Positions 1,850-18,060 of a stretch of DNA of 64,000 nt are shown here, in pieces; position 1 is the first letter of the stretch; each line of letters starts with the position of its first letter. The DNA is taken from the NCBI RefSeq assembly GCF_000263735.1, contig NC_017946.1, forward strand, positions 1,467,348 to 1,531,347, written 5' to 3'. Below the pieces are notes generated by a model that searched no databases, was not told where the DNA came from, and saw nothing but the letters and a program-made list of their open reading frames with translations. The position numbers and the translations under genes were made by a program. Source of the stretch: Pyrococcus sp. ST04. GTDB lineage: Archaea > Methanobacteriota_B > Thermococci > Thermococcales > Thermococcaceae.

Positions 1850-1908
1850 ACCCTCAGCGGGAAGTCGGTCATCATCAAATCAGCTCACTCCAGTTCCAAT
1901 CATCGGGG
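1850..1908 (-). ncRNA. Candidate C/D box guide sRNA overlapping the antiporter stop codon
   Basis: Read on the minus strand: a C-like box ATGATTG (1897-1903), a 13-nt guide, D' box CTGA (1880-1883), a 4-nt spacer, perfect C' box ATGATGA (1869-1875), an 11-nt guide, and D box CTGA (1854-1857). CCC before the C box and GGG after the D box can form the closing stem. The C box keeps the UGAU kink-turn core but differs at its last two bases. It overlaps the stop codon of the antiporter gene, so the RNA could be processed from that mRNA. Such sRNAs direct 2'-O-methylation of rRNA or tRNA. Confidence 0.65.
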
Positions 1909-11726: not shown

Positions 11727-12476
11727 ATGATAGTTTATTTCATCGGAACTGGGGGAAGCGAAGGGATCCCAGTTCACTTATGTAATTGCTCCACATGCAA
11801 TGAAGCAAGAAAATTTGGATTTTCTCAAAGAAAACCTTCAACCCTAGCAGTAATTGGGGAAAATGGAGAAGTAATTTTGTTTGATGTCGGAACGGATATA
11901 AGAGAATTCTTAAACACTCCCTTGAACGCAATATTCCTTACCCATTGGCATCATGACCATATATACGGCTTGTACAAGCTCAGGTGGACTGCCATGGAAA
12001 CTACGCTTTACGCTCCAGAAGGACATGCTGACGCCCTCATACTTAATGATCCAAAAAACCTGAAGCCAGTAATAATTAAAGCCGGAGAGAAAGTCAAAAT
12101 TGGAAGAATAACCGTAACAGCGATAAAGCTTAACCATCAAATAGAAACATTAGGGTATTACACAGAGGAAGACGGAAAGGGAATTGCCCTTCTATATGAT
12201 ACAAAAGGACTTCCAGAAAAGACATGGGAATTCTTTGAGGATAAAACTCCCATTAGACTGGCAATAGTAGATTCCACGTATCCACCAGGCTTCGAAGATC
12301 CCTATCACAACAACGTTGATGAAGCGGCAAGGATAGGAATAAAACTAGCAGAAAGAACGATACTGAGTCATATTTCCCACAAAAATCTCCCATTCCTTCA
12401 GCTAGTGAGGTATGTCAGGGGAAGGTGGGGGGATAAAGTTCTTGTGGCCTATGATGGAATGGTCTTCTATGTGTAG
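11727..12476 (+). CDS. Metallo-beta-lactamase-fold hydrolase, PhnP-like
   Basis: 249-residue metal hydrolase. It begins MIVYFIGTGGSEGIPV, has a cysteine knuckle CNCSTC near residue 21 as in PhnP-type phosphodiesterases, the dinuclear metal motif THWHHDH near residue 74, a later VDSTYP aspartate and a C-terminal histidine pair (SHISHKN). Likely a cyclic-phosphate phosphodiesterase, but the substrate is unknown. The ATG at 11727 is chosen because the family fold begins there; the open frame extends 17 codons back into the preceding gene. Possibly co-transcribed with that gene. Confidence 0.87.
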   Translation: MIVYFIGTGGSEGIPVHLCNCSTCNEARKFGFSQRKPSTLAVIGENGEVILFDVGTDIREFLNTPLNAIFLTHWHHDHIYGLYKLRWTAMETTLYAPEGHADALILNDPKNLKPVIIKAGEKVKIGRITVTAIKLNHQIETLGYYTEEDGKGIALLYDTKGLPEKTWEFFEDKTPIRLAIVDSTYPPGFEDPYHNNVDEAARIGIKLAERTILSHISHKNLPFLQLVRYVRGRWGDKVLVAYDGMVFYV

Positions 12477-12511
12477 CGAAAAGGAAATAAGGGTTTAAGG
12501 AAAAAATATAT

Positions 12512-12610
12512 CGCCCGACGAGTACTAAGGGTTGCGATGACGTCGGGACCCCCAGGGGGCCGACACTACGAAAATGGCCCCCAAACTTTTTAACCCCGCC
12601 GGCGGTTCTT
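12512..12610 (+). ncRNA. GC-rich candidate structured RNA (Hgc-like island)
   Basis: An abrupt GC-rich block in AT-rich surroundings. It can fold as CCCGACG (12514-12520) with CGTCGGG (12541-12547) around a 20-nt loop, and GGGGGCC (12555-12561) with GGCCCCC (12576-12582) around a 14-nt loop. A palindrome CCGCCGGCGG (12596-12605) and a T run follow. In AT-rich hyperthermophiles such islands are a known marker of ncRNA genes (the Hgc screen). Class and strand are uncertain; no clean H/ACA or C/D architecture is seen. The 3' part overlaps the probable TATA box (CTTTTTAA, 12585-12592) of the next gene. Confidence 0.6.
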
Positions 12611-12615
12611 TTTTC

Positions 12616-13398
12616 ATGCTTGAAAAAGCTATTAAGGAAGCAAAAGAGTTTGGAGAGAAAACTGGAATCATAAATGAGAGAATTCTCGTATTATTCTCTG
12701 GGGGAAAAGACTCAAGTTTAACACTCTACCTGCTGAAAAAGGCAGGATATGATGTTTCTGCCCTAACGTTCTTCCATAAATGGAGCTGGCCGGAAGTTGT
12801 TAGATGGGGAATGAAGTTTACAAAATCTCTTGGTGTTGAGCATTATCTAATCAATATAACAGATGCCCTTCTTCAAAAAGCTACCGGAAAAAAAGGTCCA
12901 ATATGCATACACTGCAAAAAGATCATGTTGTGGAATGCAAAATGGTTTGCATTGAACAATGACTTTGGTTTAATAGCCAAAGGGGATAACGCAAATGATA
13001 AGATAATTGGAACTCTACTTGACCAATGCCCTGGGGACATAAGACTTTGTGAGATACCAAAAATTGGAATACCAATTTTTAGACCCCTTATTAGATACAA
13101 AGCAGTGGACATTGAAAGAATGGCGGATGAAGCCCATATCAAGCCCTATAGAATGTACGAACACGGTAGAAGAAGACAGTGGAGAGAGGGGTGTCCTCTT
13201 CAGTATATCGACGAGGAAGAGAAGATAACGAAAGAGCTTATGGATCTTGCGTTTAAGATTAACTACGAAGTCAGCAAGATTGCCAGAAGAGAAAGAATTA
13301 GGGTAAGTGTCAGAGTTCCAAGCTTTGAAATTATGTGCTGGAACTGCAATAGTAGGGTTCTTGAGGAAGTCAAAAGGATAATAGGGAAGTATCAGTAG
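12616..13398 (+). CDS. PP-loop ATP pyrophosphatase, tRNA-thiolation type (TtuA/TtcA-like)
   Basis: 260-residue N-type ATP pyrophosphatase with the PP-loop FSGGKDSS at residues 27-34, an internal CIHC pair near residue 98 that fits an Fe-S or catalytic site, GDNANDKI, and a C-terminal CWNC knuckle. This matches enzymes that adenylate a base or carrier in tRNA sulfuration; the exact position modified cannot be told. The ATG at 12616 follows a T run and the frame extends 14 codons upstream into the GC-rich RNA island. A TATA-like CTTTTTAA about 28 bases upstream suggests a leaderless mRNA. It overlaps the convergent arginine decarboxylase gene by 7 bp. Confidence 0.85.
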   Translation: MLEKAIKEAKEFGEKTGIINERILVLFSGGKDSSLTLYLLKKAGYDVSALTFFHKWSWPEVVRWGMKFTKSLGVEHYLINITDALLQKATGKKGPICIHCKKIMLWNAKWFALNNDFGLIAKGDNANDKIIGTLLDQCPGDIRLCEIPKIGIPIFRPLIRYKAVDIERMADEAHIKPYRMYEHGRRRQWREGCPLQYIDEEEKITKELMDLAFKINYEVSKIARRERIRVSVRVPSFEIMCWNCNSRVLEEVKRIIGKYQ

Positions 13399-17994: not shown

Positions 17995-18060
17995 GCTTAT
18001 GATGAACTTTCCCTACGGCCTGAGCCATATGGCGATGAGGAATACAGCCAGGGCTGATTT
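17995..18060 (+). ncRNA. C/D box guide sRNA
   Basis: Textbook layout: C box ATGATGA (17999-18005), 14-nt guide, D' box CTGA (18020-18023), spacer, C' box GCGATGA (18032-18038), 15-nt guide, D box CTGA (18054-18057). The first guide would pair with target GCCGTAGGGAAAG, which recalls archaeal 23S rRNA from memory; the second with CCCTGGCTGTATTCC. A TATA-like TTTTTAAATT (about 17960) lies about 30 bases upstream. It lies in the leader of the downstream phosphodiesterase gene, just before its ATG. Confidence 0.88.

Follow-up and report, generated by a model that had tools for sequence, protein, structure and literature searches.

A GC-rich island in Pyrococcus sp. ST04 is a copy of the known Thermococcaceae noncoding RNA sRk28

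The GC-rich island studied here, in a window of 64,000 nucleotides of the Pyrococcus sp. ST04 genome (positions are counted from its first letter), is that genome's copy of the known noncoding RNA sRk28; its identity is not new. Our preferred reading, to which we give a probability of roughly 65%, is that sRk28 is an independently transcribed RNA of about 70 nt with a promoter of its own, probably acting in trans, and with loop 1 as its likely active site. What we add is the distribution of the RNA, the covariation of its stems, its promoter, the variety of its neighbors, the occurrence of the adjoining PP-loop gene in genomes where no RNA lies beside it, and a set of relics.

Identity and structure of the RNA

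In P. abyssi, Phok et al. (2011) located sRk28 within region 527697-527833 on the minus strand, mapped its 5' end to 527798 by primer extension, and found Northern bands of 70 and 100 nt, with little or no RNA in stationary phase (PMC3124441). They reported conservation in all Thermococcales then known except T. sibiricus, proposed a possible pseudoknot, saw no promoter, and suggested that the RNA relies on the upstream gene (PMC3124441). RNA-seq by Jager et al. (2014) identified T. kodakarensis sRk28 as a growth-phase-regulated orphan transcript, with the downstream gene transcribed separately (PMC4247193). The orthologous match to our island in the putative P. abyssi genome (G001) lies at 527730-527797 on the minus strand, so that its start falls within 1 nt of the mapped 5' end. 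Because this match coincides with sRk28, and a T. kodakarensis transcript exists in addition, the RNA must be regarded as already known.

The earlier note on this DNA, made from the sequence alone, had described the island as an uncharacterized noncoding RNA. The transcripts in P. abyssi and T. kodakarensis, together with the conserved stems, bear out the noncoding RNA gene, but "uncharacterized" does not hold, as Northern blotting, primer extension, and RNA-seq had already detected it. The note had also proposed an Rfam search for the Hgc and Ssc families; this search returned neither those nor any other family above chance for the island, at gathering thresholds or at permissive ones (E up to 10).

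The RNA core in Pyrococcus sp. ST04 is 70 nt long (GCCCGACGAGTACTAAGGGTTGCGATGACGTCGGGACCCCCAGGGGGCCGACACTACGAAAATGGCCCCC) and consists of two hairpins, P1 and P2, joined by a short linker (Table 1); the P2 loop opens with a conserved RACA. The sharp GC peak lies between the MBL-fold and PP-loop genes, with 62% G+C at 12515-12604 versus 31 to 50% in other nearby 90-base windows. Both strong 7-bp stems, the GC palindrome, and the T run that the note had named were confirmed. Downstream of the core come, in order, the TATA box of the PP-loop gene, the palindrome, the T run, and the PP-loop start codon, the first three outside the conserved RNA. The palindrome had been counted as part of the RNA, which its absence outside Pyrococcus contradicts. 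The proposal that the RNA 3' end covers the neighbor's TATA box fails for the 70-nt form, which stops 4 nt upstream of it, and stands for the 100-nt form, which would cover it. The plus-strand fold beats 200 of 200 dinucleotide shuffles (z = -2.65), and that of the minus strand is merely marginal by the same comparison (z = -1.63). We considered and rejected a minus-strand RNA, given the weaker fold and the plus-strand position of both the promoter and the mapped 5' end.

Table 1. Features at the sRk28 locus (window coordinates)
Feature	Position	Strand	Remarks
MBL-fold hydrolase (PhnP-like), upstream	11730..12476	+	Family searches; stop at 12476
sRk28 promoter	12479..12490	+	BRE-like AAAAGG plus TATA-like AAATAA, -34 to -23 from the 5' end
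sRk28 RNA core	12513..12582	+	Covariance-model match at 1479860-1479929
Longer sRk28 form, ~100 nt	3' end would fall in the T run ahead of the ATG	+	Northern sizes in P. abyssi (PMC3124441)
P1 hairpin	12514..12547	+	CCCGACG 12514-12520 pairs with CGTCGGG 12541-12547
P1 loop, 20 nt, highly conserved	12521-12540	+	GAGUAY...GGGUUGCGAUGA
Linker ACCCCCA	12548..12554	+	Joins the P1 and P2 hairpins
P2 hairpin	12555..12582	+	GGGGGCC 12555-12561 pairs with GGCCCCC 12576-12582
TATA box TTTTTAA of PP-loop gene	12587..12593	+	Same distance in RNA-less Thermococcus orthologues
CCGCCGGCGG palindrome	12596..12605		Between PP-loop TATA box and ATG; separate from the RNA
T run	12606-12614		Between palindrome and PP-loop ATG
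PP-loop ATPase, TtuA-like superfamily, downstream	12616..13398	+	ATG at 12616; not a cut-off-passing TtuA or QueC

The palindrome has only two copies in Pyrococcus sp. ST04, the second in the leader of a TFB gene. Nearly complete Pyrococcus genomes hold two or three sites each, including the PP-loop promoter and the TFB leader (L033 1322-1331), and the Thermococcus PP-loop orthologues have none. We take it, from this distribution, to be a Pyrococcus-only element of the promoter or leader of those genes, not of sRk28. Its occurrence at the PP-loop and TFB genes possibly marks a shared regulatory site.

Conservation, promoter, and losses

By BLAST at the DNA level, 22 of 25 Thermococcaceae genomes carry sRk28 once, and the genomes sampled from other families gave no match. 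A covariance model built from 17 sequences, searched against 94 Thermococcaceae genomes, detected the RNA in 76, always as a single copy, and gave no match in the 21 genomes that represent other families of the phylum. sRk28 is a Thermococcaceae RNA, and its conservation goes far beyond chance. The loop (GGGTTGCGATGA) and the linker are almost invariant. Among 59 distinct sequences, 99.1% of pair cells hold standard pairs, and double-sided changes occur at four pairs (41 cells); the covariation score was reached by none of 500 shuffles, nor by sliding partners. Two pairs are informative, column pair 7/30 in P1 (C-G, G-C, or U-A) and 49/66 in P2 (G-C or C-G, covarying in 24 of the 59), the other two double changes stemming from a single decaying copy, L094. 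The covariance analysis over the Thermococcales that the earlier note had called for thus reveals compensatory changes in both stems.

A second pairing is possible. The first four linker bases (12548-12551) are complementary to GGGU in the loop (12529-12532), and their pairing would give a pseudoknot or an alternative fold. This GGGU/ACCC pairing can form in 99.6 to 100% of cells, yet the columns hardly vary, and because they are almost invariant the pseudoknot is unproven. Its sole double change comes from L094 and was not trusted. Both pairing registers form in nearly all sequences. At 95°C the predicted fold is marginal for an isolated molecule, with GGGU/ACCC preferred over P1, and we therefore assume stabilization by protein or salt.

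We aligned the upstream regions on the mapped 5' end. Positions -28 to -23 contain at least five A/T out of six in 67 of 68 distinct upstream sequences, neighboring windows reach this far less often, and most distinct sequences have AA at -33/-32. Pyrococcus sp. ST04 carries AAAAGGAAATAA at the same distance as elsewhere. This pattern supports a promoter belonging to sRk28 itself, at the canonical distance, that was missed in 2011. Most Thermococcus genomes have TTATAAG at this position, and because that motif persists where the RNA is gone, it may in part be the promoter of a divergent operon.

sRk28 has been lost independently. The putative T. sibiricus genome (G024) and its relatives have no intact copy, the RNA being absent or decayed. 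Roughly 2 kb of inserted DNA (L151 955-3040) splits the sRk28 promoter of G105 from a relic with broken stems; G101 has a similar relic, G099 retains part of one, and a separate remnant appears to be present in G085. Since the RNA has been lost or has decayed in several lineages, it is dispensable over evolutionary time.

Neighboring genes and alternative readings

The downstream gene, which the earlier note took for a tRNA-thiolation gene, was named too specifically: the PP-loop protein scores 41 bits against a TtuA cut-off of 450 and 29 bits against a QueC cut-off of 150. This TtuA-like protein is conserved across the Thermococcaceae and reaches the cut-off of none of the NCBIfam families that it resembles. 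Its gene adjoins sRk28 in Pyrococcus only, where the MBL-fold gene flanks the RNA on the other side. Its own TATA box stands about 25 nt ahead of the ATG, a spacing that implies an mRNA with a very short leader or none. In 10 orthologues from other genomes, a T-rich TATA box is similarly spaced from the start codon, and no sRk28 copy lies near these loci.

Across lineages, the genes downstream of sRk28 are unlinked to it. Named by eye rather than by family search, they include the PP-loop gene, an HTH-CBS regulator, a helicase, a cupin, topoisomerase I, eL43, and DUF2284-like and HEPN-like genes. In most Thermococcus genomes, sRk28 and a neighboring operon lie head-to-head; the operon comprises two small genes and one whose best family match, below cut-off, is QueE, and in many Thermococcus genomes this QueE-like gene lies about 0.8 to 1.6 kb from the RNA. 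One locus, L132 (G059), is inverted relative to other Thermococcus: sRk28 precedes the QueE-like operon there and shares its strand. Elsewhere in the window, Rfam places two C/D guide RNAs, sR19 at 17995-18059 (+) and sR58 at 1852-1907 (-).

The genes beside sRk28 bear on another reading, which we consider unlikely: that it serves a deazaguanine-related gene as a leader riboswitch of the preQ1/preQ0 type, perhaps with trans action elsewhere. Such a reading was put forward for P. abyssi with its QueC-like neighbor (PMC3124441); the possible pseudoknot and alternative fold would suit it, and the QueE-like gene in the vicinity points weakly to deazaguanine metabolism. However, no Rfam preQ1 model matches sRk28 even at permissive E values. 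The RNA would not lie in the PP-loop leader, because that gene's TATA box is so close to its ATG, and it is not the leader of the QueE-like operon, because the operon is almost always divergent. The same orientation weakens the QueE hint, as does the retention of QueE-like genes in G104 and G105, where sRk28 is lost or decayed. With the PP-loop protein far below both cut-offs and its orthologues found without the RNA, genomic context supports neither the thiolation-gene reading nor the QueC/preQ1 one.

We also think it improbable that sRk28 is primarily a cis regulator of the Pyrococcus PP-loop gene, interfering through its transcription or through a 100-nt form lying over the neighbor's TATA box. 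That form would cover the palindrome as well, and the stretch from the RNA to the ATG is nearly invariant across all Pyrococcus. Against this, the arrangement is confined to Pyrococcus, the RNA is equally conserved beside other neighbors, and the Thermococcus orthologues of the gene do without it. Regulation of the downstream gene, which the note had raised, gains little from these comparisons, the gene having a TATA box of its own; a cis effect could occur only as a secondary, lineage-specific one.

More doubtful still is the idea that sRk28 directs rRNA or tRNA modification as an unusual guide of the H/ACA or C/D kind. Hints in that direction are that this hyperthermophile RNA has G+C-rich hairpins, that GAUGA is conserved in the loop, and that loop 2 has ACA, but among the 59 distinct sequences none has an RTGATGA box, two have CTGA, and none has ANA at the 3' end, so the island fits neither the C/D nor the H/ACA layout, as the note had recognized. 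No guide family of Rfam matches, and complementarity to rRNA does not exceed chance: the longest perfect match of loop 1 in the rRNA regions is 9 nt (23S region), and 13% of shuffles do as well.

A translated small ORF (ATGACNTCGGGACCCCCAGGGGGN..., MTSGPPGG...) conserved for its protein is very improbable, for although two covarying sites are at codon position 3 and the ATG is conserved in aligned copies, the 5' partner of the covarying P1 pair changes along with it from outside the ORF, indels break the frame in L121 and L093, codon 2 becomes Lys or Met, and RNA length (64 to 70 nt) does not vary in threes.

Probable mode of action and comparison with known systems

On our preferred reading of an independent, trans-acting RNA, sRk28 would have its own BRE/TATA promoter, with transcription beginning at 12512/12513, and would fold into two G+C-rich hairpins joined by ACCCCCA. 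The conserved single-stranded loop (GAGUAY..GGGUUGCGAUGA) is the likely active site. Most likely the molecule is a stable structured RNA that acts in trans, not a neighbor's leader; it is probably protein bound (an RNP), and growing cells would contain it whereas stationary-phase cells would not. A whole-genome search for an antisense target of the 13-nt loop found the exact complement in the RNA gene only; one mismatch gave no match, and with two mismatches the number equaled the control, as expected by chance.

We tentatively suggest, as a possibility to which we attach clearly less weight, that sRk28, a Thermococcaceae-specific RNA and neither a guide nor a known riboswitch, alternates between P1 and the GGGU/ACCC pairing and does its work in trans, whether as a growth-phase regulator or as the core of a hitherto undescribed RNP. 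If so, its repeated losses would be natural knockouts. These losses and the genetics of T. kodakarensis make the function of sRk28 testable, and archaeal RNA biology has a promising subject in a deeply conserved, single-copy, nonguide RNA that Rfam lacks. With the identity of the island settled, two published inferences are questioned on comparative grounds: that sRk28 lacks a promoter and that it is a 5'-UTR riboswitch of a QueC-like gene.

Several known systems invite comparison. The preQ1 riboswitches, an analogy suggested by Phok et al. (PMC3124441), are likewise small and may form an H-type pseudoknot, but sRk28 differs in having no Rfam sequence or structure match, in being an orphan transcription unit, and in having a neighbor that is not QueC. 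Archaeal H/ACA and C/D guides are stable small RNAs of the same genomes, from which sRk28 is set apart by lacking their defining boxes and any rRNA target found. The Hgc and Ssc RNAs of P. furiosus (SscA is sRk33) are also G+C-rich, structured Thermococcales noncoding RNAs of unknown function and were found by the same logic as the island, although sRk28 matches none of the Rfam families above chance. The sRk28 of P. abyssi and T. kodakarensis is the orthologue, sharing locus, strand, 5' end, size, and two-hairpin fold, and within Pyrococcus the adjacent gene too. There is no essential difference from the published RNA, to which we add the recognition of its promoter and the documentation of its losses.
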